In this document: positions 34,624 through 57,767 of the stretch, piece after piece
Layout of the letters: each line of letters opens with the position of its first letter
Position numbering within the stretch: position 1 is the stretch's first letter
Translations under genes and position numbers: made by a program
NCBI GenBank assembly: GCA_002839805.1
Contig: PGYT01000012.1
Coordinates: 1 to 57,767, forward strand
Direction of reading: 5' to 3'
DNA from: Ignavibacteriae bacterium HGW-Ignavibacteriae-2
Lineage (GTDB): Bacteria; Bacteroidota; Ignavibacteria; Ignavibacteriales; Melioribacteraceae
DNA: 57,767 nucleotides
Notes under the pieces: model-generated
What the model was told of the DNA's origin: nothing
The model's database searches: none
What the model saw: the letters and a program-made list of their open reading frames with translations, nothing else

Positions 34624-34638
34624 CTTTTCACCTTCTAT

Positions 34639-35172: not shown

Positions 35173-35186
35173 ATACTACCTCTCTG

Positions 35187-37809: not shown

Positions 37810-37840
37810 CATCGGTTAGTCCTAATAGGACTAAAAAATA

Positions 37841-39796: not shown

Positions 39797-39801
39797 ATAC
39801 T

Positions 39802-40020
39802 GGCTAACCAGCCCATCAAACCGACCGCCGAAACGGTTTGGGTTGTGTACAATTTTAGTGTTTAGTTTTTTCGTTCGGCATTTTGTTCTACGTAGTTTGT
39901 AAATGTGAGTTAGGTAACCGCCAGTGCGATGAAATTTACTGGCGGCTACACATTATAAACATTCGTTGTTAGTTAAGCATTGCTGTTCTGGGCTTCGGCT
40001 TAGGCACAACGCCGTTAGAC
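39802..40020 (+). repeat. attC-like site 1
   Basis: 219 nt between GGCTAAC (R'' box, 39802-39808) and GTTAGAC (R' box, 40014-40020). It opens CAGCCCATCAAACCGACC and closes GGCACAACGCC. An inner ACCG/CGGT hairpin lies near the left end and GTAACCGCCAGT...ACTGGCGGC near the middle. Confidence 0.78.
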
Positions 40021-40102
40021 ATTTTTGTTAGTGGCGACGCAAGGATGTCTTGCTTTCACAAAAACGAACAAATAATTATTGCTGTTTAAGTATGGAGAAA
40101 TT

Positions 40103-40624: not shown

Positions 40625-40642
40625 CGACTTTTTAAATACTAT

Positions 40643-40834
40643 GCCTAACAAGCAGCTCAAAGCGACCGCTTCTCTGACGCAGTCGTTTGATGTGGTTATT
40701 GGGTTTAGTATTTCAGAGTTGGGCTGTCGTTATAGTGGATTTGTAAAACGAAATTGATTTTAAAACAAAAAAGGTAATTGAAAAAAGCGTCATTGTAGTG
40801 TAGGGCAGACGGGTTAGGCGCAACACCGTTATAC
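40643..40834 (+). repeat. attC-like site 2
   Basis: 192 nt from GCCTAAC (40643-40649) to GTTATAC (40828-40834). The left end reads AAGCAGCTCAAAGCGACCGC and the right end GGGTTAGGCGCAACACC, partly complementary as expected for a folded attC. Confidence 0.75.
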
Positions 40835-40848
40835 CTCTAAAAAACAAT

Positions 40849-42477
40849 ATGAGTTTGAGAGAATTATATACAAATGAAATTAGAGAATTTGTGGATTCAA
40901 TTACAGTTCTTGTAAACAACCGAGAATTTCCTCGAGCTATTGATCTAATTAATCGAAAATTAGATACTATAAAAGAAAATAAACTAGCAGAGGATTATTT
41001 CCTAAAATTCGAGTTGGCTGGTTTCTTAATAGATATTGGTCACGATTCTAGGAGAGAAGAACCTGTATTACAAGGTTTAGAAATTATGTTAGCTGAAAAA
41101 GACGAAGTGATGGATTATATCTGGATTGGAAGCATTGAGTACAATTTAGGGAATGCAAAAGACACACTTTTTAAAATTCAGCGTGAGAAGGATAACTTTA
41201 AGTATATTCCCAAAAATATCACGTACTTACTTGAAGCAAAAAATCATTTCTGGCGTGCTTACAAATTTGAAATGGAAATTAAAAAAGAATTTGTACCACA
41301 CCTCATTACCAATTTGGCAAACTCTCTTAGTTCTTGTGGAAGAATTGCTGAGTCATTACAATTCTATGATTTAGTTCTTAAGAAATATCCCGAATTCCCG
41401 CAAGCCAATGCATCAAGATCGAATGAACTAATTTGGTTAAAAAATATTTCTCTTGGTCTTACCCAAAATCTTGTATATCAAGCTAAGATTGGATATGATA
41501 CTGCATCAAAAGCAACAGATATTCCTGGATGGATGATAGAAATCTGGAGAAATAAAAGTACTTTCTTAGCAAATGTTTTAAAAGAAATGGAATTTGATGA
41601 ATCATCAATTCATATTGATCTCGAAGAGACTAAAAAAGAACGTGAATCCCACTCAGACTGTAGAATATTTAGTATTGAAAATTATCTAACATTATCTGAA
41701 CACGCCCTATATTGTGCTTGTATTCGCGCAAGACGCGATGAACTAATGATTTGTATTCCACATTCACCATTCTCAGCTGAATATATTCCACTTATGGAGA
41801 AAACTCTTAATAGACTAAAATCAGAATTCTCTTTGGCAAGATTATTTTACTTTTTTTCAATTTACGATACATCCAATGCTTTTAAGACTTACGAAGCAGA
41901 AGTTATGTTTTCAGAATTATATGACAATGAATATTTAGGGACAGACTCAGAATTATTAAGAACAAGCTTTCGGTTATGCTTTGGGATACTTGATAAAATT
42001 GCTGTCGCTATTTGTAGGCTCTTTGATTTATCAGATAAAAGAGAACCAATATATTTTGAAAAATTTTGGAATCCTAAAAATAAAAAATCACAAAAACAAT
42101 CAACTCGCTGGGAAAGAATCAACAGTGTTGAGAACATTTCTTTACTAGCACTATATTCTCAAGCTATGGATTTAAATTCTGAGCAAGGTGAATGGAGCCT
42201 TTTTAAAAGTTGGAGAAATTCTCTCGAGCACGGTCAGTTAATACTGATAGAGGATGAAGACTTTGAGGATAAATTTAGCATAAACGATAACCCGAATTTA
42301 GTTTTAGTTTCTAAAAAATATTTTATTGAGAAGACTTTAATGATGTTACAATTTACTCGTTCAGCTATATTTAACTTTGTTTTTATGGTTAGAAACGAGG
42401 CAAATAATTATAAACCTGAAAAGGAAGGTGAACCCTCAAAGCACACATTTAATTTTAAAAATGATTCCGAGGTATAA
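40849..42477 (+). CDS. Cassette 3: LA2681-type HEPN protein
   Basis: A 542-aa soluble protein. The first half is helical with TPR-like segments (NLANSLSSCGRIAESLQFYD). The C-terminal third resembles the LA2681-like HEPN domain and contains WRNSLEHG, an intact HEPN R-x4-H motif (Arg456, His461). HEPN proteins are often metal-independent RNases in toxin-antitoxin and phage-abortive systems. No antitoxin gene accompanies it in the cassette. The TAA stop lies inside the R'' box GTATAAC of the following site, and the ATG is 21 nt from the cassette start, so the cassette is nearly all coding. Family call is by eye. Confidence 0.72.
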   Translation: MSLRELYTNEIREFVDSITVLVNNREFPRAIDLINRKLDTIKENKLAEDYFLKFELAGFLIDIGHDSRREEPVLQGLEIMLAEKDEVMDYIWIGSIEYNLGNAKDTLFKIQREKDNFKYIPKNITYLLEAKNHFWRAYKFEMEIKKEFVPHLITNLANSLSSCGRIAESLQFYDLVLKKYPEFPQANASRSNELIWLKNISLGLTQNLVYQAKIGYDTASKATDIPGWMIEIWRNKSTFLANVLKEMEFDESSIHIDLEETKKERESHSDCRIFSIENYLTLSEHALYCACIRARRDELMICIPHSPFSAEYIPLMEKTLNRLKSEFSLARLFYFFSIYDTSNAFKTYEAEVMFSELYDNEYLGTDSELLRTSFRLCFGILDKIAVAICRLFDLSDKREPIYFEKFWNPKNKKSQKQSTRWERINSVENISLLALYSQAMDLNSEQGEWSLFKSWRNSLEHGQLILIEDEDFEDKFSINDNPNLVLVSKKYFIEKTLMMLQFTRSAIFNFVFMVRNEANNYKPEKEGEPSKHTFNFKNDSEV

Positions 42478-42659
42478 CAAGCCAATCGAGCGGACTCCGT
42501 TTTCGCATTTGGCATTTTCATAATTATTGGCTTTTTGATTGAGAGTTAAGTTTCATTGTTTTGTATTACTGTTAAATAAATATTTTACTAATTATAGGTA
42601 GTTGTTCTTTAAGCGGTATCGCTATTCTGGGCCACTGCTTATCGGCAACGCAGTTAGCT
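42472..42659 (+). repeat. attC-like site 3
   Basis: 188 nt from GTATAAC (42472-42478) to GTTAGCT (42653-42659). Very similar to site 5 over nearly its whole length, sharing GGACTCCGTTTTCGCATTTG and AAATATTTTACTAATTATAG. Confidence 0.78.
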
Positions 42660-42662
42660 AGT

Positions 42663-43394
42663 ATGGAAAAAAAGGAAGAAGAAAAATACTTTCTCTTACT
42701 ATTTAAAAAACTTTATGATCGTTTTCCTGATGGAGAAATCATCTCATCTGAAAAACCGGATTTTATTGTCAAAACTGAAAACAGCACTTATGGAGTCGAA
42801 CTTTCAAAAATATACCAAAAAACTAAAATATTTAATTTATCACCACAAGCATCTGATTCCATTGGCTATTCAATTGTAAATATGATATTAAATAAGTTGA
42901 ATAATTATGAAATCTCGTTTTTAGACGTACTTATTGATTTCACTTTTCAAAAACCCTACACAACAAAAGAAAGAGAAAAAATTAGTAATGTAATAGTGAA
43001 ACTGATAATTGACAATATACCAGATGAGAATGAATCATTAAGAATATATAATGAGTTTGAGAATGAAGCACAAATACCATTCGAAGTAAGCACTATGCGT
43101 ATTTTAAATCATCCTTTTCTTGAGCGCAATTCAGTTTCATTCCCAAGATATGGTTTCTTTCAACACAATATGATTAATAACATTCAGGAAGTATTAAAGA
43201 AGAAAGATGATAAGATAAAAATATATAAACCATATGACGAGCAATGGTTATTAATTTATGCCTTGGGAGGTAATTCAGGTGGGTTTTTTGACCCTTCCGA
43301 AGAAACAATAAATCACAAATATCACACTAAATTCGATAGAATATTTTTATTGATTTCACTTGATAACAAGGTTTATGAATTGAAGAAAATTTAG
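42663..43394 (+). CDS. Cassette 4: possible PD-(D/E)xK nuclease-like protein
   Basis: A 243-aa protein with an N-terminal motif resembling the PD-(D/E)xK core: PDFIVKTENSTYGVELSKIY (Asp about 36, then Glu-x-x-Lys), preceded by a helix with a conserved-looking Glu. The rest is helical, with a late YDEQWLLIYALGG strand often seen in restriction-like or nuclease families. The ATG lies 4 nt after the cassette-start box GTTAGCT, with no room for a Shine-Dalgarno, so leaderless or cassette-dependent translation is likely. Its TAG stop lies inside the end sequence. Assignment is tentative. Confidence 0.55.
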   Translation: MEKKEEEKYFLLLFKKLYDRFPDGEIISSEKPDFIVKTENSTYGVELSKIYQKTKIFNLSPQASDSIGYSIVNMILNKLNNYEISFLDVLIDFTFQKPYTTKEREKISNVIVKLIIDNIPDENESLRIYNEFENEAQIPFEVSTMRILNHPFLERNSVSFPRYGFFQHNMINNIQEVLKKKDDKIKIYKPYDEQWLLIYALGGNSGGFFDPSEETINHKYHTKFDRIFLLISLDNKVYELKKI

Positions 43395-43598
43395 CTAATC
43401 AGTATTGGCTACGAGTATTTTGTGCTATTGGCTTTTCTTTCTTGTTGAGGAGAATCAAGTGGATTACTTTGCAAGTATAGTTTTAAATAATAAATTTTTT
43501 TTATGATTTGGCGTTGTGTTTCTATTCTGCATCCCTGTCCCGCCAAGGTACCGGCGGTTAAATCTGGGGCGGACGGGTGAAAAGCCACGTTGTTATGT
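43393..43598 (+). repeat. attC-like site 4
   Basis: 206 nt from AGCTAAT (43393-43399), which differs from AGCTAAC by one base, to GTTATGT (43592-43598). It contains CCTGTCCCGCCAAGGTACCG (about 43,534-43,553), shared with site 6 and with the repeat at 56.8 kb. Confidence 0.65.
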
Positions 43599-43622
43599 TT
43601 TTAATTAATAGGAATGTAAAGG

Positions 43623-44258
43623 ATGAATAAATCAGAAAAGTTTTGGGACAAGGTATCTAGTAAGTTTGATAAGCGGTCCCAAAAATTTGATAAGACTGAA
43701 ATACGAACTCTTGTAAATACTAAACAATATCTCAATGTCAGCGATATAGTTTTAGATTATGGATGTGCTACGGGTACAATGGCTATCAAAATTTCTGACA
43801 AAGTAAAAAAAATTTACGGCATTGATATCTCGTGCAAAATGATTGATGCTGCAAAAAGAAAAGTGGCTGAGCGGAAAATTGAAAATATAGATTTCGCACA
43901 ATCAACAATATTTGATGAGAGATATAAGAGGGAGTCATTTGATGTGATTCTGGCTTTAAATATTCTTCATTTTATAGAAGATCCAAAGAAGGTTATGACA
44001 AGGATAAACGAATTATTGAAACCGGGAGGATTGATTATTTCTGTAACACCTTGTTTGGGTGAGAAGAAGTCATTATTAAATATTCTTTTATTTCTCCTAG
44101 TATTCCTCCAAACTAAAATGGGAATAGTCCCTTATATACGATTCTTTAAAATCTCTGAATTAGAAGATTCACTTACTAATGGAAATTTGCAAATACTTGA
44201 AACTGAAAGTTTGCATAGTACAGCTGAACAGTATTTTATTGTGGCAAAAAAGATATAG
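43623..44258 (+). CDS. Cassette 5: class I SAM-dependent methyltransferase
   Basis: A 211-aa methyltransferase with motif I LDYGCATGTMAIKIS (about residue 42), an acidic motif II (GIDISCKMID) and motif IV FDVILALNILHFIEDP. This is the class I Rossmann fold; substrate unknown, small molecule likely. AGGA precedes the ATG by about 9 nt. Bounded by GTTATGTTTTT and GAAAACATAAC (10 of 11 complementary). Confidence 0.85.
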   Translation: MNKSEKFWDKVSSKFDKRSQKFDKTEIRTLVNTKQYLNVSDIVLDYGCATGTMAIKISDKVKKIYGIDISCKMIDAAKRKVAERKIENIDFAQSTIFDERYKRESFDVILALNILHFIEDPKKVMTRINELLKPGGLIISVTPCLGEKKSLLNILLFLLVFLQTKMGIVPYIRFFKISELEDSLTNGNLQILETESLHSTAEQYFIVAKKI

Positions 44259-44261
44259 AAA

Positions 44262-44450
44262 ACATAACAAACCAATCAAAACGGACTCCGTTTTCGCATT
44301 TGGCATTTTCATAATTATTGGCTTTTATATCAAGTGTGATGGTTCTTTGTTTAGTATTACAGTTAAATAAATATTTTACTAATTATAGGTAATTGTTATT
44401 TAAGCGGTATCGCTATTCAGGGCTGCCGCTTATCGGCAACGCCTTTATGT
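44262..44450 (+). repeat. attC-like site 5
   Basis: 189 nt from ACATAAC (44262-44268) to TTTATGT (44444-44450). Near-duplicate of site 3. The R' box has T in place of G at its first position, so the point of recombination may be altered. Confidence 0.75.
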
Positions 44451-44486
44451 GTGTAAATTAATAATATCATCTATGGAGCATGGTTA

Positions 44487-45434
44487 ATGAGAAATTCAAT
44501 GAAACGAATACTAATATCGGCAATTGTAATAATATTAGGTTTGAGCAGTTATAGTTTTGGGCAAAAAGAATTTATGACAGTGAACGGAAAGAAAATAGAG
44601 GTTTTTATTTCCGGACTGGAAAATAATCAACCTGGTAAACCTGTAATTGTCCTTGAAAATGGAATGGCAACTAAATATGATTATTGGGAAACCATAGTTA
44701 ATGAAGTTTCCAAAACCTCGGTTGTTTTTTCCTATAATCGACCAAGAATTGGAGAATCTGAAAATGACAGTCTGCCTCCAACAGTAGCACATATTAATAG
44801 CAACTTAAAATCAATGCTTTTAGAGAAGGGTCTTAAGCCGCCATATTTGTTAGTTGGGCATTCATTCGGCGGTGCATATATAAGAAGTTTTGCTTCAAAA
44901 TACCCGGAAGAAATTGCTGGACTAATTTTTGTTGATCCAATTGACTTCACTAAAAAAGGAGATGACGGTGATCTTCCATATTTAGAAATTGGATTAACAA
45001 AGCACCAAATCGATTCTATGTTTGCAAAACCGTATACAAAATTCAAAGAAAAGCTTTATGAAGAAATGCCGAATTTTTATGTTGAGGAAGTGAAAATATC
45101 CAGTCAATTAACCAAAAATGATTTTAAAGATTGCGACAGCATACCCCTGCCTGATGTTCCGGTTCATTTTATCAAAGCCGGTGAATATCCTAAGGGACCC
45201 GATGACCGGGGAGAAACTAGTTTTGATAAGAAGAAATTGTTTAGGATCAATAATAATATTCAAATGAAACGTTGGATTGAATTATTAAACCCACTCAAAT
45301 ATGGAAAGCTAATTTATTTGTCAAATTCGGGGCACTATATCCCCAAAGACGATCCTGAAACAATTATCACAAGCATTAGGCTGGCTCTGAATGATTATTA
45401 CAAAATTCAAAAGGAAAAAATAATTAAGGAATAG
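44487..45434 (+). CDS. Cassette 6: exported alpha/beta hydrolase
   Basis: A 315-aa alpha/beta hydrolase with a signal peptide (about residues 5-26, ending SYSFGQ). The nucleophile elbow is GHSFGG with Ser126, DP at the end of the following strand (FVDP), and the catalytic His lies in NSGHYIPKDDP. It probably hydrolyses an ester or amide outside the cytoplasm. GGAG lies 8 nt before the ATG. Bounded by TTTATGTGTG and CACACATAAC (9 of 10 complementary). Confidence 0.85.
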   Translation: MRNSMKRILISAIVIILGLSSYSFGQKEFMTVNGKKIEVFISGLENNQPGKPVIVLENGMATKYDYWETIVNEVSKTSVVFSYNRPRIGESENDSLPPTVAHINSNLKSMLLEKGLKPPYLLVGHSFGGAYIRSFASKYPEEIAGLIFVDPIDFTKKGDDGDLPYLEIGLTKHQIDSMFAKPYTKFKEKLYEEMPNFYVEEVKISSQLTKNDFKDCDSIPLPDVPVHFIKAGEYPKGPDDRGETSFDKKKLFRINNNIQMKRWIELLNPLKYGKLIYLSNSGHYIPKDDPETIITSIRLALNDYYKIQKEKIIKE

Positions 45435-45443
45435 TATAATCAC

Positions 45444-45677
45444 ACATAACACGCCGCTCAACACGGACAGCGTTTACATTATGGAATTTAATAATTATTA
45501 AATTTGGTTTTCAAACCCAAGATTCTTTTGGAGATAGTTTGTTCTCCCGAAGGGGTGCTTTCGTAATTAAGAATTATTTTTTATAAATAAAAGTTAGTTG
45601 CAATTAGGTGGCATTCCTGTCCCGCCAAAGTACCGGGGGTAAATCCGGGGTACTGGTTAGTTGCAACGCCATAATAC
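45444..45677 (+). repeat. attC-like site 6
   Basis: 234 nt from ACATAAC (45444-45450) to a degenerate R' box ATAATAC (45671-45677) preceded by the usual GCAACGCC. Most of it (45472-45651) is the left copy of the 180-bp direct repeat. Confidence 0.7.
45472..45651 (+). repeat. Left copy of 180-bp direct repeat flanking the metal block
   Basis: Matches 56681-56859 in the same orientation with about 90% identity by eye, including TTATGGAATTTAAT, TTGGTTTTCAAACCCAA, CCCGAAGGGGTGCTTTCGTAA and CATTCCTGTCCCGCCAAAGTA. In this copy the repeat lies inside a complete attC-like site. Confidence 0.88.
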
Positions 45678-45769
45678 CGCTGCAGTTTTAATATCTCTTT
45701 ATGCAAATAATTACATACTTTAAGCATCCATATTGGATTTTGAGATTTTTACCTACGTAACTTAATTTA

Positions 45770-46588
45770 TTAAAATTGATTTTGATTACAATTATTATCC
45801 TTAATATCTTCTATCTGGATCGTAGTTTGAACAATGTGAAGAGTCAAAGCAATCTCAGTAGTGCTCATAGCCCAAATATGTAAATCGTGAACTTCTTTTA
45901 CTCCTTCTAATGAACTTAAATACACTTGATTATTTCCAAATCGATATCTTTAGGTACCGTATCCAACGAAAGATGTAATGAATCTTTTAATAGTCCCCAG
46001 GTTCCGATTGTAATTACGACAACAATAACAAGACTTATAATCGGATCGAACAAGTAAAAGCCGGAAATATTAATAAGAAATCCGGCAGCAACTACACCAA
46101 GCGAAACTCCTGAATCAGCAGCCATGTGCAGAAATGCGCCTTTAATATTTATATCTTTTTACCCGCTCTTTCAAAAATAGTAAAGCAGTGAATGTGTTTA
46201 TTGCAACTCCCACTCCTGCAACAATTATCATAGTTGTTCCACCGACCGGCTAAGGGTTTATAATTTTTCGAATAGCTTCAATGCTTATGGCGCCCACAGC
46301 AATCAACAAAAAACAGCATTAAATAAAGCCGCAAGGATGGTAGATTTTCTTAATCCTAAGTTCTGCTTTTTGTAACGGCAGATTGTGCAAGGCAAGCTCC
46401 GCCCTTAGCTAAAATTAAACCAAGAACATCGCTAAAATTATGCCCGGCATCTGCTAAAAGTGCCGTCGAATTAATTATAAGTACGTATGCGACTTCAACA
46501 ATGATTTAAATGATATTTAATGCAATACCAAACCAAATGCTCTGTTCTAATTTTTCACATTGAGTGAATGAGTATGTTCATTTGACAT
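45770..46588 (-). pseudogene. Cation diffusion facilitator (CzcD-like) pseudogene
   Basis: About 819 nt that once encoded a CDF metal exporter of about 270 aa. Surviving pieces in different frames are: N terminus MSNEHTHSLNV; LLADAGHNFSDVLGLILA with the metal-binding H-x3-D; HMAADSGVSLGV; and C-terminal EVHDLHIWAMSTTEIALTLH. Several frameshifts and stops interrupt it, so no functional product is expected. Orientation matches the other metal genes, suggesting it was the last gene of the same resistance block. Confidence 0.85.
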
Positions 46589-47089
46589 AATCTCTTCTCA
46601 TCACTTTACAATTTTTAATATTCTAAAAGCAAGGAGTTGATGCTGAATATCGATACTTAGACAAAATTTACCCATTATGGGAATTTGACTAACAGCCTCT
46701 GATTTTAGATCAAGACAAGCAATATGATATAATGTCAATAATACTTCCTGATGGGTCTAAAAAAGATTTGGTTTGAGATTACTGAGATTAGCAAACTTGG
46801 ATAAATGAGCCATTAATATTAAAATAAAATCGATTTAATAACAGAGAAATTAGGTTCCCTACCCTGCCCCTCTAGCTGACCAGGGCGCGCATACATCCAG
46901 AATTCGAAGTCGGTTTCTGTCTAATAGAAACAAAGTACAAAAGGGGAGCAAAATCAGTTGTAAAATATTTTTTTGATAATTTTCTAGAAAGGCTATAAGC
47001 AAAAATAAAACCCGGCTACTTATGTAATGGAGCTGAACCCTAACAGAAGGATTTGGAATATCCTTAACTGTTAGCCGCTAATTTTATTT
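46589..47089. other. Decayed intergenic segment with a hairpin and a gene remnant
   Basis: About 0.5 kb with no intact gene. On the plus strand (about 46,631-46,779) pieces such as YLDKIYPLWEFD, a stop, then QYDIMSIILPDGSKKDLV look like a broken small conserved protein. A later frame, EFEVGFCLIETKYKRGAKSV, has no start. At 47040-47074 CTAACAGAAGGAT...ATATCCTTAACTGTTAG forms a strong hairpin just past the oxidase gene, possibly its terminator, though no U-run follows. Confidence 0.45.
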
Positions 47090-48781
47090 TCACAAAATCA
47101 TCTTCTTGGTTTCAACAAAATTACTGTTTTGTAATTTATAAATGTACATCCCGCTTGAAAGGTTCAAGGCATCAAAGTTAATGGAATGTGTGCCTGCTTT
47201 CATATTTGCCTTAACCAGTTCAACTATCTCTTTTCCCTCCGTATTAAAAATCTTTAATGAAACAAACCCACTTACAGGTTGTTTCCAACTGATTACAGTT
47301 GACTGATTAAGTGGATTTGGATAATTCTGATTCAGTTCAAATGTATCTGGTGGAGAATTTTCATTTTCCACATTTGTCGATGCATCAATCAGAATGTTAA
47401 GCATCATTCCGTCATCTTCGTGCTCAAGATAATGACAGTGCAGCAGATAAATTCCAGAGTCATCATTGAACTTAACTAACATCTGAACAGTTTCATTCGG
47501 GTTAACAAGCACGGTATCCTTCCATCCCTTATCATTCGGAGGAATATTTGGATTTCCATTCCTTGAATGAACCTGGAGTAAAACTCCATGAACGTGCATC
47601 GGGTGAAAGTTATTTGTACTGTTAATAAATTTCCATTCTTCAAGTTGATTATAGGGAATTGTCTCGTCAATTCGATTCATTTTATAAGTTAATCCATTAA
47701 TCCTGTGCATCCCAATTTCCATCATTTCCTGGGTTAGTGTAAAATCGCGCGTTCCGTTTATATCAATGATATCATAATAATTAATCGGAGGGAGATTTTG
47801 CGGGACTATTCCTCCTGAAGATAAATTACCAATATTATCGAATCTTAAAAGATCCATTTGAGTTCCCTGGCTGCCAATTCCACTGAATGATTGTGATTGT
47901 AATGATATGGAATTTCCGATGGTGTTGGGGAAGAAATCAAAAAGAATATCATGTCTTTCACCCGGAGAAAGATAAGCACTATTCATTTGAACAGCTTCAT
48001 CCTTTAATCCGCCATTTGATCCAATAATCCAGAATTAAGAATTATCTGAGAACCCAAAATTATAAACCCTTGCATTGGAGCTATTGACTATCCGGAATCT
48101 ATAAAGTGTTTTTTGAACTTCGAAGAAAGCATCGAATGTTCCATTTACAAGAAGTACATCACCGAGATATCCCAACATCCTATCCATCATATTTGGGGCA
48201 TAATTAAATTGAGGTTGATATACTGAATGTCTATCATGAATTAGTAGCGGAATATCATATACACCGGTCGGCAGACCGTACTGAAGTTCTTCATCATCCT
48301 CAATAATAAAAAATCCGGCATATCCTTTATAAACATGTTTTGCAGTTAAATGATGAGCGTGAGAATGATAAAAATATGTCCCTGCTCTTTGAATGATTGG
48401 GAATGAATAAGTGTAGTTAGTACCAGCTTGAACATCATCCTTCGGCTGCCCGTCCATTAATTCCGGTACAAGTAAGCCGTGCCAATGGTTTGTTGCTTCT
48501 TCAGTAAACTGGTTTTCGAATAATACGGAAAAATCATCACCTTTTTTTACTCATATAGTTGGACAAGGGTATGAATTATTCAGAGCTAAAATCTGGGTTG
48601 TTGTTCCAGGTCAAATCTCTACATCAGCTGAGTTAAAAATTAATGATTCCCTGATTGTAGAACGCAAAGGGTTGCCCACTTGCAATTTGGTGATTTTACT
48701 ACTTTGCGAAAATATATTTGGAACCGCGGCTAAAGTTAAACTAGCTATTGATGATTTAATGATAAAGTCATGTCGCTTCAT
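47090..48781 (-). pseudogene. Multicopper oxidase with T9SS sorting domain, three in-frame stops
   Basis: One continuous 564-codon frame for a CotA/CueO-like multicopper oxidase interrupted by TGA (48611-48613), TGA (48551-48553) and TAA (48035-48037), without any frameshift. All copper motifs survive: HWHGL, HSHAHH, HPMHVHG and HCHYLEH followed by a Met. The start has a weak Tat-like signal (MKRHDFIIKSSIASLTLAAVP). The C terminus (NYPNPLNQSTVISW to KKMIL) is a type A Por/T9SS sorting domain. It would have been an exported copper oxidase for the neighbouring efflux system. The nearby decayed CDF gene supports pseudogene status. Confidence 0.88.
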
Positions 48782-48994
48782 TTAGTACCTTCATATTCAA
48801 TTTGTAGAAAAATTCAATTAATAGTCTTCTTATACTAATCAATCAATTCTGATTATATTGTTGGATGTTCATTACCAATTTAAATTTAAGACTGGTAATA
48901 TAGCCCTTCATACTGCTTGACAGTTTCCTTATCCGCTATCTTCAATTCGAATTGTGTTTAATGAACTACATCTTTTTTCTTTCTTCACCATAGC

Positions 48995-49648
48995 TCAAAT
49001 GTTTTCTCTTCTAAATAATGTGTAAACATAAGGTCTTTTACTACCGGATGGAGTTATATAAAGATGATTCAAATATTTAATCAATCCAAAATCATTACCA
49101 AGGAATTCAGTAATCATTTTATGATCATAATTAACAACGTCGAGACCGCTGCATTTATTCGCTCCCTCAAGAGAGAACACAGCAATAATTACATATCCGC
49201 CTTTTTTTACAAATCGTTTTAATGTAGCACGATAACCGGCTTGTTGTTTTTTCTCAGTTAAAAAATGAAGCACCGTTCTGTCGTGCCAAAGATCAACCTT
49301 TAAAGTATTATCCAGATTTTGTGTGTTCGTAATATCATCAACTATCCATTTTACAAGCTCTGAATTTTCTTGTGATAATCTTGTTTTAGATTTCTCGAGT
49401 GCAATTGTACTGATATCGGTTGCTATAATATTTCTATACCCTTGCTGAATTAAACCGTCAATTAGTGTAGTTGCGCCGGAACCTACATCCAATATTACGG
49501 CATTCTTATCGAGTCCGCATTCTGAAATAAAATCTAGCGATGGCTTCGGTATTTCCTCATACCATCCTAAGCTATTCATATTATTTGAAGAATAAACCTT
49601 ATTCCAGTGTTCTTTGTTATTAATATGACTTTTGTCGTAGACTTTCAT
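48995..49648 (-). CDS. Class I SAM-dependent methyltransferase of the metal block
   Basis: A 217-aa methyltransferase: HWNKVYSSNNMNSLGWYEE, motif I ILDVGSGATTLIDGL, acidic IATDIS, and LWHDRTVLHFLTE. The start at MKVYDKS is supported by AAGGAT 6 nt upstream; a start ten codons earlier overlaps the DUF3147 gene. The family resembles enzymes near metal and metalloid resistance genes, so detoxification by methylation is possible, but the substrate cannot be told. It is the last intact gene of the efflux run. Confidence 0.82.
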   Translation of the reverse strand: MKVYDKSHINNKEHWNKVYSSNNMNSLGWYEEIPKPSLDFISECGLDKNAVILDVGSGATTLIDGLIQQGYRNIIATDISTIALEKSKTRLSQENSELVKWIVDDITNTQNLDNTLKVDLWHDRTVLHFLTEKKQQAGYRATLKRFVKKGGYVIIAVFSLEGANKCSGLDVVNYDHKMITEFLGNDFGLIKYLNHLYITPSGSKRPYVYTLFRRENI

Positions 49649-49661
49649 TTTGTATCCTTCT

Positions 49662-50012
49662 TTAAATTCTAATCCCAAATTTTGCTAAGAGAGCAATCAT
49701 TAAATAATAAAGCAGTGCTGTTACTCCAGATGCCAAAGATAAAGCAAGATAAAAATTTATTTTCATTCTTAACAAGAGCGGGAGAATAATAAATAGTCCA
49801 AGTGAAGGAATCACCATCCAAAATACACTTGTTGAAAATTGTGAAATCTTTGCAGCATCCTTTGTCTCAACGTATAACAAAATCATTGCTAACACCGAAA
49901 CAAGGGGAATGGAGGCAATGATGCCTCCAATCAAAGAACTCCTTTTTGATACTTCTGATATAGCCACAATTAATGCAGCAGAAATTGCAACTTTAATTAT
50001 GTAGTAAAACAT
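49662..50012 (-). CDS. DUF3147 family membrane protein
   Basis: A 116-aa protein with four hydrophobic segments, MFYYIIKVAISAALIVAISE then GGIIASIPLVSVLAMI. It matches the DUF3147 family, whose members often sit next to CusA/CzcA pump genes, as here (2 nt downstream of the pump gene). Function unknown; possibly an accessory of metal efflux. Confidence 0.75.
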   Translation of the reverse strand: MFYYIIKVAISAALIVAISEVSKRSSLIGGIIASIPLVSVLAMILLYVETKDAAKISQFSTSVFWMVIPSLGLFIILPLLLRMKINFYLALSLASGVTALLYYLMIALLAKFGIRI

Positions 50013-50014
50013 AT

Positions 50015-53000
50015 TTATTTTCCTTTCCCAAATCTATGAAACAAACTCGGCACTACAACCATATTTAATGCAGTCGAAGTAAATAGACCTCCGAGAATTA
50101 CAATAGCCATCGGAGCTTCAATTTCTTTACCCGGTTCTCCGCTTCCAAGAGCAAGTGGAACTAAAGCAAGTCCAGCTGTTATTGCGGTCATCAATATTGG
50201 ATTTAATCTTTCTATCGATCCTTGAATTACTGCTTGAGTGAATTCTACTCCTTCTTCGAGCAGATGCTTGTAATGTGCTATCATTAATATCCCATTTCGA
50301 GTTGCGATACCGAATAATGTTATAAACCCAACGAGAGAAGCAACGCTTATTATACCGTCAGTAAAATAAACCGACCATACACCGCCGATTAAAGCAAGCG
50401 GAAGATTAACGAGGATAAATAACGAGTACTTGAAATTACCGAATTGTAGATACAATATTAAAAATATTGCACTTACAGAGACTAAACTAAGAAGGGTAAT
50501 AATTTTGGTAGCTTCCTGCTCGCTTTCAAACTGTCCGCCAAATTCTATAAAATAACCTTGAGGAAAGCTGACACTAGTTTGGATATTTTTCTGCATTTCA
50601 TCAACTACGCTTCTTAAATCTCTGCCTGAAACATTTGCCTGAACAACTATTTTTCTTTGAACATTTTCCCGGCTTATTCTATTGGGTCCTTTCTCATTTA
50701 CCACTTCCGCTAATTGAGACAGCGGAACTTTCGCCCCTATTGGAGTATCAAACATTGCGTTCTGAATTTTATGAATATTGCCTCTATTATTTTCATCATA
50801 ACGTACTACAAGATCAAAAGTATTTTGCCCTTCCCTAACCTCAGTAGCTGTTACACCATTAAGGGCAATATCAATCGCATCGGCAAGCTGTCCAACAGTT
50901 ATGCCGTAACGAGCCATTGCAGTGCGGTTAAATTTAATTTTGGTTTGCGGAACTTCTACTTCCTGGTCAACGGCGATATCAACTGCTCCTTCAACCTTCT
51001 CCATTTCTTCCTTAACTGAAGCCGCTATTGAACGAAGCTGCTGAAGATTTGTGCCGAAAACCTTTACGGCGATATTCGCTCTCGTACCCGAAAGCATATG
51101 GTCTATTCTGTGTCCAATAGGCTGACCAATTGTAACATTTGTACCTGGTAAAACAGTGAGAGAATTTCTTAAATCATTTATAAACTTTTCCTTGCTTTTA
51201 CCGTTAAGTTCAAAACGGATGTCCAGTTCGGCAGCGTTTACACCTTGTGCGTGCTCGTCAAGTTCAGCCCTTCCGGTTCTTCTTGCCGTCGATTTTACTT
51301 CCGGTTGAGATAGAATAATCTCTTCGGCAAGGTTGCCAATTTTATTGGATTCATCTAGGGAAGTACCCGGAAGCGTTACTAAACTCAGTGTTAGAGAACC
51401 TTCGTTAAATTCGGGAAGAAATGATCTGCCCAAAAACGGGATTACTGCAATTGTAATAACAAGAGCCGCTAACGAGGAAATAATAATTGTCTTGGGATGT
51501 TTTAAGGTGAACTTCAACGTTTTTTCATAGAGCACCTTTAGTTTCGCTACCAGCCAGGTATCACCCTCATTCTTCATAAAATCTGCTTTTGAGAGCAGAT
51601 AATATGACAGTACAGGCGTAACGGTTAAGGCAACAAATAAGGAAGCGAAAATAGAAGTTATATAAGCAAATCCCATTGGTCTCAAAAGTCTGCCCTCAAC
51701 TCCGCTTAAAAAAAACAGTGGAAGAAATACAACAACAATAATCAAAGTTGCATTAACCATCGGTGCTCTAATTTCTTTCGATGCTTCGAAAATTACAGTT
51801 AGCGGATTTTTTCTTTCACTATCAGGCAGTGATTTATTCAGTTTCATTCGGCGGAACACATTTTCAACGTCAATGATTGCGTCATCAACAAGTGCGCCTA
51901 TTGCTATCGCGATTCCGCCGAGAGACATTGTATTTATCATAATATCGAATAGTTGAAAAATTATTATAGTAACAATAATGGACAAGGGGATAGCAAGCAC
52001 GGAAATAAATGTAGTTCTAAAATTCCATAAAAAGAAAAATATCACAATGATTACAAGTATTGCCCCGTCTCGTAAAGCTTCAATTACATTGCCGATTGAA
52101 GTGTTTATAAAATCGGACTGCTTGAAAATATCTAAATTGATTACGATTCCATTTGGCAAAGTTTTTTGAATCTCATCTAATGACGATTCTATTTTTTCTG
52201 TCAATTCAATTGTGTTTGTCTGCGGCTGTTTTTGAACTGTTAAAATAACTGCCGGTTTAGCGTTTGAAGAACCGTCACCTATTTTAATTGCCGGACCAAT
52301 TTTAACTTCAGCTACATCCCTCATAAAAATAGGAACACCATTCTTTGTTGCGACAACACTATTGGAGATATCTTCAATTGTCTGCACTCTCCCTATTCCG
52401 CGTATTAAATATTCACTGCCGGAATCCATATAAGAACCGCCGGAAGAGTTTTCGTTTGACTCCTCAGCAGATTTTAATATTTCGTTAAGAGATAAATTAT
52501 ATGCATGAAGCTTTTCAGGTGAAACTAAAATTTGGTATTGTTTTACTGCCCCTCCTATAGGAATAACTTGCGAAACTCCATTTATGGAAAGAAGTCTTCT
52601 TCTTATTTCAAAATCGGCAATTGTTCTTAAATCCATTTCTGTAAGATTATCGGAGTTATTCTTCTCATCAATGCTTAAACCTAGGAGCATTATCTCACCC
52701 ATAATAGATGAAATAGGCGCAAGCTGCGGATTATCAATTCCTTTTGGCAAATTCGCAGCGGCTGTCTGGATCTTTTCATTGACCACTTGTCTTGCAGTAT
52801 AGATATCAGTTCCCCAGTCGAACTCTACCCAAACTATAGAAATTCCTGCAGCGCTTGATGAACGAACTCTTCTTACATCTGTAGCGCCGTTAACAGAAGT
52901 TTCAATTGGAAAAGTTACCAGCATTTCCACTTCTTCGGCTGCCATACCGTGAGCTTCGGTTATTATAGTAACGGTTGGTGCAGTTAAATCCGGGAATACA

Positions 53001-53110
53001 TCTACAGGTAAATCCAAAGTAATGTATGTACCTAAAATCAGTAAAAGCAGAGCTGATATAAGTACAATCAACCTTCGGTTAAGTGAAAATTGAATTAATT
53101 TATCAAACAT
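50015..53110 (-). CDS. Heavy-metal RND efflux pump, CusA/CzcA family
   Basis: A 1031-aa inner-membrane pump with 12 TM helices and two large periplasmic loops. RND motifs include DLPVDVFPDLTAPTVTIITE near the N terminus and the proton-relay segment GALVDDAIIDVENVFRR in TM4, with GIATRNGILMIAHYKHLLEEG in the second half. It belongs to the heavy-metal (HME) group. The ion (Cu, Ag, Zn, Co, Cd) is not certain, since the CusA Met relay was not recognised; a copper oxidase remnant nearby hints at copper. It lies 17 nt after the adaptor gene. Confidence 0.92.
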   Translation of the reverse strand: MFDKLIQFSLNRRLIVLISALLLLILGTYITLDLPVDVFPDLTAPTVTIITEAHGMAAEEVEMLVTFPIETSVNGATDVRRVRSSSAAGISIVWVEFDWGTDIYTARQVVNEKIQTAAANLPKGIDNPQLAPISSIMGEIMLLGLSIDEKNNSDNLTEMDLRTIADFEIRRRLLSINGVSQVIPIGGAVKQYQILVSPEKLHAYNLSLNEILKSAEESNENSSGGSYMDSGSEYLIRGIGRVQTIEDISNSVVATKNGVPIFMRDVAEVKIGPAIKIGDGSSNAKPAVILTVQKQPQTNTIELTEKIESSLDEIQKTLPNGIVINLDIFKQSDFINTSIGNVIEALRDGAILVIIVIFFFLWNFRTTFISVLAIPLSIIVTIIIFQLFDIMINTMSLGGIAIAIGALVDDAIIDVENVFRRMKLNKSLPDSERKNPLTVIFEASKEIRAPMVNATLIIVVVFLPLFFLSGVEGRLLRPMGFAYITSIFASLFVALTVTPVLSYYLLSKADFMKNEGDTWLVAKLKVLYEKTLKFTLKHPKTIIISSLAALVITIAVIPFLGRSFLPEFNEGSLTLSLVTLPGTSLDESNKIGNLAEEIILSQPEVKSTARRTGRAELDEHAQGVNAAELDIRFELNGKSKEKFINDLRNSLTVLPGTNVTIGQPIGHRIDHMLSGTRANIAVKVFGTNLQQLRSIAASVKEEMEKVEGAVDIAVDQEVEVPQTKIKFNRTAMARYGITVGQLADAIDIALNGVTATEVREGQNTFDLVVRYDENNRGNIHKIQNAMFDTPIGAKVPLSQLAEVVNEKGPNRISRENVQRKIVVQANVSGRDLRSVVDEMQKNIQTSVSFPQGYFIEFGGQFESEQEATKIITLLSLVSVSAIFLILYLQFGNFKYSLFILVNLPLALIGGVWSVYFTDGIISVASLVGFITLFGIATRNGILMIAHYKHLLEEGVEFTQAVIQGSIERLNPILMTAITAGLALVPLALGSGEPGKEIEAPMAIVILGGLFTSTALNMVVVPSLFHRFGKGK

Positions 53111-53127
53111 TTTTTCTCCTCAAACTT

Positions 53128-54627
53128 TTAATGAACGTGACCTTGACCGATTGCTGATTCTGGCGATAGTGCCGCAAGCCGCACCTGATATGCACCTTGA
53201 GTAACTACTCTTTCACCTTCATTCAAACCTTCAAGTATCTGTACATAATTTCCATCGGTTATTCCGGTTTTTAAGATTCTTTTCTCAAACGCTTCTCCTT
53301 CAACTTGAACGTAAGCGGTATGAAGACCGTCTTCGTCAATGATAGCGCTATCTGGAATTGCTATATATTCTTCTCCTTGACCTTCATGAATATAAACTTC
53401 CGCATACATCCCTATCTTTATTTGGTTTTGAGGATTTGTAAATTCGAAATATACCGGTATTGTTCTGTTAACGGCGTCCAAACCTATAGCAACAGATATT
53501 TTTTTACCATTAAGGTCACTGATGCTAAATTCCCTATTTATACCTTCTATTGAAAAAGAGGCATTCTTAGAATTTACAGCAGCTTCTATTTGTGTTGAAG
53601 GAACGTTTACTTTTAATACTAATTTTGATGGATTTATTATTGTAAACAACTCTTGTCCAGGTTTTATCTGGTCACCAAGATTAAAGTTTATCATTTCAAT
53701 ATATCCATCAATCGGTGAAATAACAGAGTAACCGTTTTCGGTAATCTTTATTTGTTCAGCCAAAGAATTATAACTTACCTGCTTTGATTCAAAATCAAAT
53801 TTTGCTTCATCCAAACGTTTTTGTGATACAGCCTTTTTTTCAAATAGTTTTTTAGCTCTTTCATATTCTGATTTGGCAAGAAGATAATCATTTTTGATTT
53901 TCTGAATATTTGCGCTTGCATCGACAGAAGGAGAAATGTTTAATAAAACTTCCCCTCCTTTTACAAAGGTGCCTATTGATCCTAAATTCGAGTTATTTTT
54001 ATTCAAAACGATACCTGCTATTGGCGATACAACTTTTGAGAAATACTCTGGTTTCGGTTTAATTTCTCCGGTCGCCAAAACAGACTTTACCAATTTTCTT
54101 TTTATAACCGGTTCATTTGCAAAATCAATTTTCCATTGCTGTTCTTTGAGGAAAGATATACTTGATGATTCAGTTTCCTCTTCATGAGGAATTTCATTTT
54201 CGTTTGAATATACCTTTACATCGTTAACAATAATATTATCTGATACTTGTTCTCCTTTGAGAGTAATATTCATTATATAATTTCCAGGTTCTGTAAATTT
54301 TATAACCGGGGTATAAATTCCGTCTCTTACGGGTTTATCTTCAGTTAAAGATAATTTTGCTCCTCTGCCGTTTGTGAATTCAACAGTTAAAATTCCTTGA
54401 GTTACAGCCTTGAATTTTTTTAAATCAGTTAAATGAACAAGAAACTTTGCATCCTGATTTACGACAAGAGCAGGATATTCCAGAAATATCTCTGTTGAAT
54501 CTGTATATTGAGTTACTGATGTGCCGCCGTGTTCATGAACTTCCGCTTCAGTTTCATGTTCATGTGAACAGGCACCGAGGAAAGTTAATGCAACTGCAAA
54601 AATTAAAATATATGTTGTTCTGACCAT
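53128..54627 (-). CDS. RND periplasmic adaptor lipoprotein (CusB/CzcB type)
   Basis: A 499-aa membrane-fusion protein with lipobox LGAC (Cys20) and a His/Glu-rich start HEHETEAEVHEHGG likely to bind metal. It has an N-terminal domain, a barrel-sandwich/lipoyl part (SPIAGIVLNKNNSNLGSIG), a coiled-coil hairpin (about residues 230-290) and a C-terminal domain ending ESAIGQGHVH, again with His. It links the pump to the outer-membrane factor. It follows the TolC-type gene by 20 nt. Confidence 0.92.
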   Translation of the reverse strand: MVRTTYILIFAVALTFLGACSHEHETEAEVHEHGGTSVTQYTDSTEIFLEYPALVVNQDAKFLVHLTDLKKFKAVTQGILTVEFTNGRGAKLSLTEDKPVRDGIYTPVIKFTEPGNYIMNITLKGEQVSDNIIVNDVKVYSNENEIPHEEETESSSISFLKEQQWKIDFANEPVIKRKLVKSVLATGEIKPKPEYFSKVVSPIAGIVLNKNNSNLGSIGTFVKGGEVLLNISPSVDASANIQKIKNDYLLAKSEYERAKKLFEKKAVSQKRLDEAKFDFESKQVSYNSLAEQIKITENGYSVISPIDGYIEMINFNLGDQIKPGQELFTIINPSKLVLKVNVPSTQIEAAVNSKNASFSIEGINREFSISDLNGKKISVAIGLDAVNRTIPVYFEFTNPQNQIKIGMYAEVYIHEGQGEEYIAIPDSAIIDEDGLHTAYVQVEGEAFEKRILKTGITDGNYVQILEGLNEGERVVTQGAYQVRLAALSPESAIGQGHVH

Positions 54628-54647
54628 TTTATTTGCTTTGCTCCTTA

Positions 54648-55871
54648 TTATTTCTCAAGATTTGTTAAAGAAATTCCCACAGCTTTTTCAAGCTGAGAAT
54701 AATATCTATGAAGATTTATTTCCAATTCGCTGCTCAATATTGATCCGTCTATAAAAGCATTTATGCCGTCGATAAACTCGACTAATTTTATCTCACCATG
54801 TTCATAAGAATAAACTGCTGTGTTTAAAATATTATCCATCCGAATATTGTTTCTTTCGTCGTATAATGATTTGTTCACAATATAATTTTGATACGCTTCA
54901 GATACTTCTGTTTTGATTTTATTAATTAGGAATGCCGTTTCCTTTTCAAGGAGGTTTGCTTCAATTTCCGATTGCTGAATAGCCGTCTGGTTGCGATTAA
55001 ACAGAGGGACTTCAAAATCTATTTGGAATACCGTTCCTTTTAGGTTGTCGGTTTGTTTTTTGTACCCGGCTGATAAACTAATATCCGGTATTATTTTCAT
55101 TCGATTGTGTGAGACAAACGAATTCTCACTTTCAATTAACATCTCAAATGATTTAAGATCATTCCTGTTTTTTAGTGCAACGTTTACAAGTTCTTCTTCG
55201 GAAAATTTTAAATCTGTGTTTGATTCCACGGACCCTGTTAGGATGTTTTCAGATGAGTTGAATCCGATAAGAAGTTTTAAATTATTCTCTGATTTGGTTT
55301 TTAAAAATTCTATTTCTGAAGCTGTTGCTTTTATTTTATTCACTTCAATGAGTATTCTCTGTAATTCATACTCAGAAATGTCGCCTTCATGCAAACGGCT
55401 TTTTGCAGCCTCTGCTAACTCGGCTAAATGGGTAATTGTATTATTTAGTCTGCCGGATAAATCAGAATATTTATTAAAAGCAAAGTAACTTTCACGAACA
55501 CGCGCGGATACTTTAAACTTTAGAGCATTATAAAGAAGTTTCTGAGCTTCAAGAGATTTTTCTTTTGATTCTAAATTGCTCCAACGGTTCCATAAAAAAT
55601 TTAACGGAATTGAACCGGATGCAATCCACTCCTTGTAATTAGTAGAACCCGAATTTAAGTCTTCGCGTGTATATGTGAACATCGGGTTCGGGAGCCTTGC
55701 CGATTCTCCCAATGCAACATCTGCGTATTTTATTTTCGCAGATTGTTTTTGCAAATCTATGTTGTTTTGATAAGCTAACTTAAGGGCTTCATCAAAAGAT
55801 ATTTTTTGCTGAGCTATTATAAATACACAAGGTATAAATAAAAGTAAAACCAAGAGACGAAATAGCCTCAT
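54648..55871 (-). CDS. TolC/CusC-family outer-membrane efflux protein
   Basis: A 407-aa outer-membrane factor with a signal peptide (about residues 1-20) and two TolC repeats of long helices (ISFDEALKLAYQNNIDLQKQ, then ELVNVALKNRNDLKSFEMLI). It completes the tripartite metal efflux system with the adaptor and pump. Length is typical of the heavy-metal type. It starts the three-gene efflux run, 49 nt after the His-rich gene. Confidence 0.88.
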   Translation of the reverse strand: MRLFRLLVLLLFIPCVFIIAQQKISFDEALKLAYQNNIDLQKQSAKIKYADVALGESARLPNPMFTYTREDLNSGSTNYKEWIASGSIPLNFLWNRWSNLESKEKSLEAQKLLYNALKFKVSARVRESYFAFNKYSDLSGRLNNTITHLAELAEAAKSRLHEGDISEYELQRILIEVNKIKATASEIEFLKTKSENNLKLLIGFNSSENILTGSVESNTDLKFSEEELVNVALKNRNDLKSFEMLIESENSFVSHNRMKIIPDISLSAGYKKQTDNLKGTVFQIDFEVPLFNRNQTAIQQSEIEANLLEKETAFLINKIKTEVSEAYQNYIVNKSLYDERNNIRMDNILNTAVYSYEHGEIKLVEFIDGINAFIDGSILSSELEINLHRYYSQLEKAVGISLTNLEK

Positions 55872-55920
55872 GATACCTCCTATTGAAGATTATTATAATT
55901 TTTTTAAAACTTGGTTTGGT

Positions 55921-56352
55921 TTAAGCTAATGGGGGAGAAACGTTTGCGGCGCGATGGACATACTTTTCCCATTGAAACTGAAATTCGGGATCGGAAGTTG
56001 CACATCGGATTGCATCTTTTTCGGAACTATCTTGAAAGTAAAATTGATTAGTGTAAAAATTACAAACAATGTTTATCTTGAATCCTCTTGAAGGTTTGAT
56101 ACTGAAAACGGAGTTTAATTGAATAAAATGATAGTGATTGGCTTCGTCAAACGAAAAATGGTTTTTATCTTCAGAATTGTGTGTGTCAGAATTATGATTC
56201 AACAGATGTGAATGAATTACTGTTTCCTCTACTTGGTCAACCGAAACTTCATTGTGATGGTGGTGAAAAAAAGGTGAAAATAATAGAAAGTTCACTAACA
56301 AGAGTGAAATTGCAGAACTAAACAGCCAATATTTTTTTCTGAAAGTAGTCAT
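55921..56352 (-). CDS. His-rich exported protein at the head of the metal efflux operon
   Basis: A 143-aa protein with one N-terminal hydrophobic segment (about residues 10-29) followed by a His-rich stretch (HHHHNEV and several further His up to about residue 75), then a short C-terminal part ending in AANVSPPLA. Similar small His-rich proteins precede metal RND operons in this phylum, and a metal-buffering or sensing role is likely but unproven. It is the first gene of the minus-strand block, so the operon promoter should lie just upstream. Confidence 0.65.
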   Translation of the reverse strand: MTTFRKKYWLFSSAISLLLVNFLLFSPFFHHHHNEVSVDQVEETVIHSHLLNHNSDTHNSEDKNHFSFDEANHYHFIQLNSVFSIKPSRGFKINIVCNFYTNQFYFQDSSEKDAIRCATSDPEFQFQWEKYVHRAANVSPPLA

Positions 56353-56680
56353 AATTAAAAATGTTGCGTAATATAGTAAATAAATTCTTTTAAAATCAAC
56401 GTGTTTAGGTTTAGCTTTTTACTGTAATTAAAAATTAGTTTTGGTCGCAAATGATTCTCTTAATACAAAAATTTACAATGAGAATAATTACGATCATAAA
56501 TTTACCTCTTCACAAACCCGTCCTTAATTAAATTCAATATTTTCCTCTTTCTATTTTAGTGATCCATTTACGGTTTTATTCAATCAAAACACAGAACCGT
56601 CAATATTCAAGGTTTTGATATTCTGTTTCAATTAGTTCATTCGTAAAAAAGTTGACAATCGTTTTCCCGCTTTATTTTTC
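56353..56680. other. Noncoding gap with likely promoter of the metal operon
   Basis: A 328-nt AT-rich gap between the His-rich gene and the right direct repeat. No ORF is visible. An inverted repeat ATCAAAAC...GTTTTGAT (about 56,583-56,622) could be an operator or terminator element. No recognisable metal-regulator box was found. Confidence 0.35.
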
Positions 56681-56859
56681 GTTTTCATTATGGAATTTAA
56701 TTATTATTAGATATGGTTTTCAAACCCAAAATTCTTTTGAAGATAGTTTGTTCCCCCGAAGGGGTGCTTTCGTAATAAGAATTATTTTTTATAAATAAAA
56801 GTCAGTTGCAATGAGGTGGCATTCCTGTCCCGCCAAAGTATCGGGGGTAAATCTGGGGT
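56681..56859 (+). repeat. Right copy of 180-bp direct repeat, truncated attC-like site
   Basis: Same orientation and sequence type as 45472-45651. Here the left end of the attC (TAAC box plus CGGAC) is missing, replaced by CCCGCTTTATTTTTC, while the right part continues through CATGGAATTTGCCACACA to a box GTTATGC at 56901-56907. Confidence 0.85.
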
Positions 56860-56921
56860 GGCGGTTATACCAAAGGCATTCACATGGAATTTGCCACACA
56901 GTTATGCGTCAAGAGAATAAA

Positions 56922-57767
56922 ATGGATACTGCATTACAATTAAGGATAGCATACGATTTAAATCAATCAGTATCTTCAAAAGAAGCTATTGGTTTATTGT
57001 CGCAATCAAAACTAGTCAATAAACTTACATCAGAGTTTGTTCCTAATAATACCTATTCAGTTTGGAGATTATTAGCACTGTCTGAAATACCATTTGCTAA
57101 TAATTTAGATTACACAAAAAAAGTAATTGACTACGTAACAAAAAATATGGGTACAGCTTATGGCTTCTCTCTATTTGGTAGCATAGAGGATTTATTGCCC
57201 TGTTATAATTCGATGTTAATTGAGGCATATAGCAAGTTAGGGCACTCCAATCATATTCTCGTTAAAAATGGTGTGGAGTGGATTCTGAAATATCAACCAA
57301 TCAATAGGACATCAAAATCTGATTGGAACCAAAGAGGCACTAAAAAATACGGCGGGTGTTTCAATGACATTCCTTGTTATATTGGAGTGGCAAAATCAGT
57401 GAAAGCTCTTCAATCATATATAAAACATTCAAATAATCCGAAGAATTTACGGATAACTGAGTTTATTGAAGAAGGGACAGAATATATACTCTCTCATAAT
57501 TTGTATATGCGGCAGAGGGATAACAAACCAATATTTAAGGATATCCTTAGTTTATCTTTCCCCTATAATTACAAACTAAATATTCTTGAGCTACTGGAAA
57601 TAGTTAAGGAAGCAAATAAATTAAAAAGCAGTAATTGTAAATCTGCAAAAGAATATCTGAATAGTAGAAAACTGGAAGATGGTTTCTGGAAAATAGATTA
57701 TAATTATAAAGCGAAAGGATATATCTCTTTTGATAATAAAAGAGGCAACAGCGAATGGCTTACTCAT
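56922..57767 (+). CDS. Partial toroid-fold (terpenoid cyclase/prenyltransferase-like) protein, next cassette
   Basis: At least 282 codons, open to the window edge, starting MDTALQLRIAYDLNQSV. It follows the cassette-start box GTTATGC by 14 nt, so it is probably the next cassette of the array. Repeating helices with aromatic ends (GVEWILKYQ, YLNSRKLEDGFW, GYISFDNKRGNSEWLTH) resemble the alpha/alpha toroid fold of squalene/prenyltransferase-repeat proteins. An ATG at 56904 inside the box is a possible earlier start. No catalytic motif such as DxDD is visible in the part present. Confidence 0.6.
   Translation, partial: MDTALQLRIAYDLNQSVSSKEAIGLLSQSKLVNKLTSEFVPNNTYSVWRLLALSEIPFANNLDYTKKVIDYVTKNMGTAYGFSLFGSIEDLLPCYNSMLIEAYSKLGHSNHILVKNGVEWILKYQPINRTSKSDWNQRGTKKYGGCFNDIPCYIGVAKSVKALQSYIKHSNNPKNLRITEFIEEGTEYILSHNLYMRQRDNKPIFKDILSLSFPYNYKLNILELLEIVKEANKLKSSNCKSAKEYLNSRKLEDGFWKIDYNYKAKGYISFDNKRGNSEWLTH

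Follow-up and report, generated by a model that had tools for sequence, protein, structure and literature searches.

Two nearly identical direct repeats in the draft genome of Ignavibacteriae bacterium HGW-Ignavibacteriae-2 enclose an 11-kb block of DNA that carries a metal efflux operon, and the question raised by this locus is whether the repeats brought the block to its present position. The window analysed (57,767 nucleotides, nt) is the entire contig C107 (PGYT01000012.1), the right end of which is a contig end lying inside a gene cassette. It belongs to an assembly of 147 contigs and 4.16 Mb (a 99.92% complete draft) and was studied against a family sample of 79 genomes, its own included, from 35 genera. 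An original prediction, made from the sequence of the window, proposed that the block may have entered by recombination between attC-like repeats. With a probability of roughly 0.6, we consider instead that the repeats represent two sister attC sites, attC6 and attC7, within a single array for which the assembly holds no integrase (CALIN-type; cluster of attC sites lacking integron integrase), and that they did not insert the block: its left edge would have been joined by an integrase and its right edge by a non-site-specific event. The block is most readily understood as DNA from next to the array that became fused to it, rather than as cargo of the repeats.

The repeats as attC sites of one array

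The two copies, at 45472-45651 and 56681-56859, lie in the same orientation with 93% identity over 180 nt (second copy, E 1.6e-72), as originally described. The repeat search returned the pair as two parts (111 and 92 nt long, 11209 and 11208 apart), reflecting a 1-nt indel between them, and the longest exact run shared by the two sites is 27 nt. Their proposed attC origin is upheld both by alignment with the sites of other genomes and by a profile made from 11 attCs, all of them taken from other genomes and none from this one. In this relatives-only profile, the left copy is a near-complete attC (45445-45672, E 2.8e-28, model positions 2-183 of 187) and the right copy is an attC truncated at both ends (56682-56868, E 3.4e-11, model positions 31-171 of 187). 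The plus-strand site attC6 comprises the left repeat and both arms (45444-45676); R'', L'', L' and R' all align in it, with R' decayed to ATAATACC in place of the expected GTTATACC. The fragment attC7, also on the plus strand (56681-56868), is without the R''/L'' arm (model positions 1-30), the loss of its left end having been noticed in the original prediction, and is also without the end of L' (172-187). In an alignment with attC-like sites of other genomes, about 15 nt are missing from attC7 near the right end, a loss that may be due to a deletion between a pair of GTTA words. By the same alignment, the two copies can be assigned to a single attC family that has the arms ATAACCnGCCGCTCAACACGGACAGCG and GGGCTGCCGGTTAGCGGCAACGCCGTTA and that we take to be VCR-like.

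Four of the five other attC sites of the window, all on the plus strand, were matched by the same profile: attC1 (39802-40020; match at 39805-40018, E 1.1e-8), attC2 (40643-40834; 40644-40832, E 7.1e-6), attC3 (42472-42659; 42474-42657, E 7.7e-17) and attC5 (44262-44449; 44263-44449, E 1.5e-17). The divergent attC4 (43393-43598, at 43.4-43.6 kb) reached E 0.093 with the relatives-only profile and 2e-12 with a profile containing it; a chance-looking match at 20.2 kb (E 0.085) is about as weak. Given that 20 dinucleotide shuffles of the window yielded one match to the same profile, at E 0.35, the attC matches of the window are not attributable to chance. The window hence has six tandem attC sites in one orientation, between 39.8 and 45.7 kb, and a fragment of a seventh at 56.7 kb. 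The six gene cassettes that they delimit (c1-c6, 38892-45671, all on the plus strand) start with sequences complementary to their own R'' at 7, 6, 7, 6, 7 and 6 of 7 bases, as judged by eye and with no shuffle control.

The attC6/attC7 pair is the most alike of the 21 pairs among the seven attCs of the window (93%, 187 positions aligned). However, attC3 and attC5, which have two ordinary cassettes between them, are comparably alike (88%, 183 positions aligned, longest exact run 45 nt, also recovered by the repeat search), so that a near-identical pair does not by itself indicate an insertion. In its own assembly, the 180-nt repeat has four matches at E <= 0.001, namely the two copies and two weak partial matches (43529-43569 of the window and C145:3963-4015), both of which lie within other attC sites; occurrence at places unrelated to attC, which the original prediction had named as evidence against itself, was not seen. 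A reading as a dispersed repeat or insertion sequence was rejected, as the full repeat occurs only twice in the assembly and the aligned matches elsewhere are attC sites. With its arms included, the repeat has matches in 24 of the 79 family genomes (its own among them), from 12 of the 35 genera. A small extra GC-rich hairpin-like insert (CCCGCC...) is present near the right arm of some attCs, in the window at 45568-45660 and 43529-43569 and also in G017.

The left border at an integrase-type crossover

The key comparison for the left border is G050, a single-contig genome of 3,300,414 bases. To the right of attC6 lies, on the minus strand, a broken cation diffusion facilitator (CDF) gene with its 3' flank (45674-46630), which is frameshifted and 83-85% identical to G050:C1:656438-657472. 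At the left junction (45671-45674), the crossover point of attC6 and the first position matching the sequence next to attI in G050 coincide to within 1-3 nt, the homology starting at 45674. In the window, the R' position of attC6, CAACGCC|ATAATACCGCTGCA, marks the beginning of the CDF sequence; in G050, the homologous sequence begins at TAATAG|TTATACCGCTGCA (TAATAG|TTATACC), at the attI crossover 3' of intI. These boundaries were defined independently, one from the attC profile and the other from the flanks of other intI genes. As the CDF sequence starts at the attC6 crossover in one genome and at the attI crossover in the other, the left border is of the integrase type, and we attribute it, for one of the two lineages or both, to joining by an integrase.

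The attI boundary was examined in the 20 genomes for which 240 bp or more of sequence 3' of intI was available. In 14 of them, an attI-like TAATAGTT (TAATAG|TT) occurs no more than 300 bp to the 3' side of intI; within the same distance on the 5' side, it occurs in none. Sites of the attC type with the same orientation are found on the 3' side of intI in G009, G018, G019, G066 and, weakly, G028 (E 5e-4), and an attC of the repeat's own family is found 3' of intI in G019. The one exact motif searched for in the window, TAATAGTTA, has no match there, just as six of the 20 intI loci are without TAATAGTT. The CDF gene itself closes a CDF/PII/CusA-type operon in G050, and the same three genes are likewise neighbours in G064, G025 and G060, where no attC was found at E <= 0.1 in the 3.7-8 kb examined. 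It thus appears to be an ordinary operon gene and is probably not cassette-borne.

No integrase found in the assembly

IntI proteins over the TIGR02249 cut-off are encoded in 32 of the 79 family genomes, including the same-genus genome G052, and by none of the contigs of the assembly studied here; three stretches next to the borders of array and block gave no IntI-like match better than E 0.4. Four matches to PF00589 exceeded that family's cut-off and were rejected as candidates, none being over the integron-integrase cut-off; three of them read as XerC/XerD-type when judged from their translations, two being halves at contig ends, and the fourth lies on C78. The two halves, from one apparent Xer-like recombinase gene, lie at the end of C62 and the start of C43, which suggests that these contigs adjoin.

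An integrase-type joint in an assembly with no detectable integrase could have arisen if the integron had excised its own integrase gene. From an ancestral order of array, intI, attI and CDF, recombination between attC6 and attI would have removed intI and joined attC6 to the CDF flank. G050 has this order and orientation, with its array towards the CDF gene and with intI and attI between, and both the crossover joint and the want of IntI in a 99.92% complete assembly accord with it. However, we regard this explanation as doubtful. No intermediate was found among the genomes examined, whether for self-excision or for occupation of attI; the G050 array stands beside tRNA-Lys and that of the window beside tRNA-Met; and a tblastx comparison of the window with 19.9 kb of the array side of G050 gave no match at 1e-8. 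The integrase gene may also have disappeared in another way or be present in a part of the genome missing from the assembly, and the decayed R' makes the present attC6 a candidate site only as to activity. Were it true, the locus would represent a site-specific, self-inflicted route from integron to CALIN, with an array frozen beside a heavy-metal operon.

The right border within an attC

All five open reading frames (ORFs) of at least 200 amino acids between the repeats are on the minus strand, bearing out the minus-strand block of the original prediction; shorter antisense ORFs are present. The right end of the block is formed by the head of the efflux operon, a small minus-strand protein (55921-56352; conserved in IGN16 and NAT134, no Pfam match), and by the upstream DNA of this operon (56353-56680), which shows weak homology to NAT134 up to the edge of the right repeat. 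IGN16 (G034), NAT134 (G031) and a third relative carrying the block, G045, belong to genera other than that of the window genome. The czc block (47305-56542) is 90.4% identical to IGN16 and 85-86% identical to NAT134. Around the block, no attC was found at E <= 0.5 in IGN16 (59.8 kb of a 62.5-kb contig), NAT134 (~21 kb) or G045 (~20 kb), such that attC-flanked copies number 0/3 within the DNA examined. The original prediction would have been contradicted by relatives with the block at the same place and no repeats; the relatives do carry it without attC in the stretches examined, but at other places. From these alignments, the right border appears to be promoter-upstream operon DNA fused into the middle of an attC and not a site-specific joint.

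In the favoured explanation, cassettes inserted at attI would have left the DNA to the right of attI, that is, the CDF flank, behind the last attC, with the integron integrase joining the broken CDF gene to the array at the attC6 crossover. A later fusion around 46.6-47.3 kb would have linked the CDF remnant to the multicopper-oxidase/czcABC operon. A non-site-specific joining, either a deletion or illegitimate recombination, would have fused the upstream end of the czc-type operon into the middle of attC7, removing the R''/L'' arm. The data themselves show that the repeats are attCs, that attC7 is truncated, that the left border matches both an attC and an attI crossover, that the right flank is homologous as far as the repeat and that the block holds pseudogenes; we infer the order of these events, the cause of the right and middle fusions and the loss of intI. 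Entry by recombination between the repeats, as originally suggested, is not supported, given a left border at an integrase-type crossover and a right border fused into the middle of an attC.

Several observations weigh against this explanation. At the left, the junction is based on one comparison genome, G050, the attC array of which (four profile matches) is on the 5' side of intI, so that G050 is not a textbook empty attI. Sites on the 5' side of intI also occur in G056 (partial) and G037 (other strand), and the attI motif is missing in exact form from the six intI flanks mentioned above. At the right, homology to IGN16 ends already at 56542, and the NAT134 match beside the junction, by which the upstream operon DNA runs to the edge of attC7, is a weaker one (56532-56687, 73%, 158 nt). 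There is, moreover, a further attC with a cassette to the right of the block, so that the block does not merely terminate the array, and two array pieces need explaining. Finally, the expected basal stem was not seen in bottom-strand folds of three complete attCs, attC6 among them (z -2.0, -0.7 and -2.3), nor, where it was not expected, in the truncated attC7 (z -1.5); single-strand folding is uninformative as a test for attC.

It is improbable that the whole block is a giant 11-kb gene cassette moved by the integrase, with attC7 as its own, later damaged attC. The left edge coincides with a cassette boundary in two genomes and an attC fragment in the same orientation stands at the right end, as such a cassette would have. 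However, the distal attC is incomplete, being without R''/L'', and no complement of the cassette start was seen, by eye, in 60 nt around the left end of attC7. Likewise, G050 has no attC in 17 kb on the CDF side of intI, and the CDF and czc operons occur separately elsewhere, with no attC in the loci examined.

Similarly unlikely is the entry of a circle or block bearing an attC-like repeat by homologous recombination with an attC, which would have duplicated that site. Direct repeats of 180 nt in one orientation, 93% identical and the most alike of 21 pairs, are what this would leave at the two ends. However, the flanks of both copies are otherwise explained, attC6 runs on into its native attC arm and a similarly alike pair exists without a block; the 7% divergence and the 15-nt difference would also make the event an old one. 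A misjoin of the draft contig at attC sites is very improbable: although the 147-contig draft ends here inside a cassette and similarity among attCs hampers assembly (according to PMC9024848), the copies share just 27 nt as their longest exact run, the left joint falls on a biologically meaningful point and GC content is 0.32-0.36 throughout the parts of the window, save 0.26 in the noncoding 56353-56679.

As for the present, a RecA-mediated deletion or homologous excision of the block across the repeats may be possible in principle. Its excision by an integrase would at present be improbable, given that attC7 lacks its R''/L'' arm and that the R' of attC6 is decayed.

Relation to known systems

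The sites belong to a known kind, and the interest of the locus lies in the boundary shared by attI and attC rather than in a mobile metal block. The array resembles a CALIN, as this IntegronFinder term is used in PMC9024848, in that it has at least two tandem attCs, cassettes in one orientation and no intI found. It differs in the 11 kb of non-cassette DNA between two of its attCs and in its draft state, as intI may be missing from the assembly only. An intI pointing towards attI is known in the chromosomal integrons of Treponema (PMC3607928); the family's attI-like motif 3' of intI in 14 of 20 loci and the same-orientation attCs there in the five genomes listed above are comparable, whereas the array of G050 lies on the 5' side. 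Among the papers available for searching, none dealt with integrons of Melioribacter roseus.

An apparent mobile metal-resistance block here resolves into separate joints, one of them integrase-type and the others not, which cautions that sister pairs of attC sites can resemble the repeats of mobile elements. With the CDF flank behind attI in one genus and behind the last attC in another, the two loci form a natural pair for testing how arrays gain neighbours and lose integrases.

The efflux block

The block is of the CzcABC/CusABC-type RND (resistance-nodulation-division) efflux kind. Its open minus-strand ORFs encode a putative CzcA/CusA-type RND pump (50015-53110; TIGR00914, 868 bits, cut-off 701), a CzcB-type periplasmic adaptor (53128-54627; TIGR01730, 156 bits, cut-off 95) and a TolC/CzcC-type outer-membrane channel (54648-55871; below family cut-offs). 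Such operons differ from the window in that its neighbouring CDF and multicopper oxidase genes are pseudogenes and attC sites flank the block. On the same strand lie ORFs for a small hydrophobic protein (49662-50012; NF006749, a hypothetical protein family) and, by family scans, a methyltransferase (48995-49678), followed by the multicopper oxidase pseudogene (47087-48781), which has three in-frame stops before its end. Its type IX secretion system (T9SS) tail (47087-47300) is unlike those of IGN16 and NAT134, and DNA homology stops at 47297-47305, so that the tail may have been swapped. When eight ORFs or remnants from the block were compared with protein families, no transposase was among the matches, no dedicated insertion-sequence search having been made and 46.63-47.09 kb being left unassigned.

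The stops in the oxidase gene and the frameshifts in the CDF gene, while the czcABC ORFs are open, point to an old block. In the housekeeping stretch at 32990-37115, identity to the window is 74% for G052, 70% for G045, 69% for G050, 65-70% for G034 and 66-74% for G031, far below the 85% of the CDF remnant (G050) and the 90% (G034) and 85% (G031) of the czc block. Transfer between genera would be the simplest reading for both.

Cassettes and other array pieces

A plus-strand tRNA-Met gene (37736-37810; ARAGORN) lies about 1.1 kb to the left of the point where the first cassette starts. Among two same-genus genomes, G053 has no attC in 6.4 kb beyond the tRNA-Met site, and the array is hence absent there; contigs of G052 break at this site, leaving no clean empty site readable. 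In G050 (region C1:657614-666200), the array is situated between a tRNA-Lys gene (first attC ~0.9 kb after it) and intI.

Cassette c3 (40849-42477) encodes a 542-aa protein with an LA2681-like HEPN domain (PF18733, E 7e-39) and no PADLOC match. Run on seven cassette ORFs and one block ORF, PADLOC returned nothing beyond methyltransferase-type matches, to c5. The cassette to the right of attC7 (56865-57767, plus strand), an ORF without assigned function in family scans, runs off the contig end. Contig C145 was rejected as its continuation, no exact overlap of at least 15 nt with the window end being found. Further attC sites of this genome lie on contigs C104 and C145, the latter (4337 bp) being another array piece with three attC matches, one of them partial, and with two cassettes whose proteins presumably resemble Phd/ParE toxin-antitoxin pairs.

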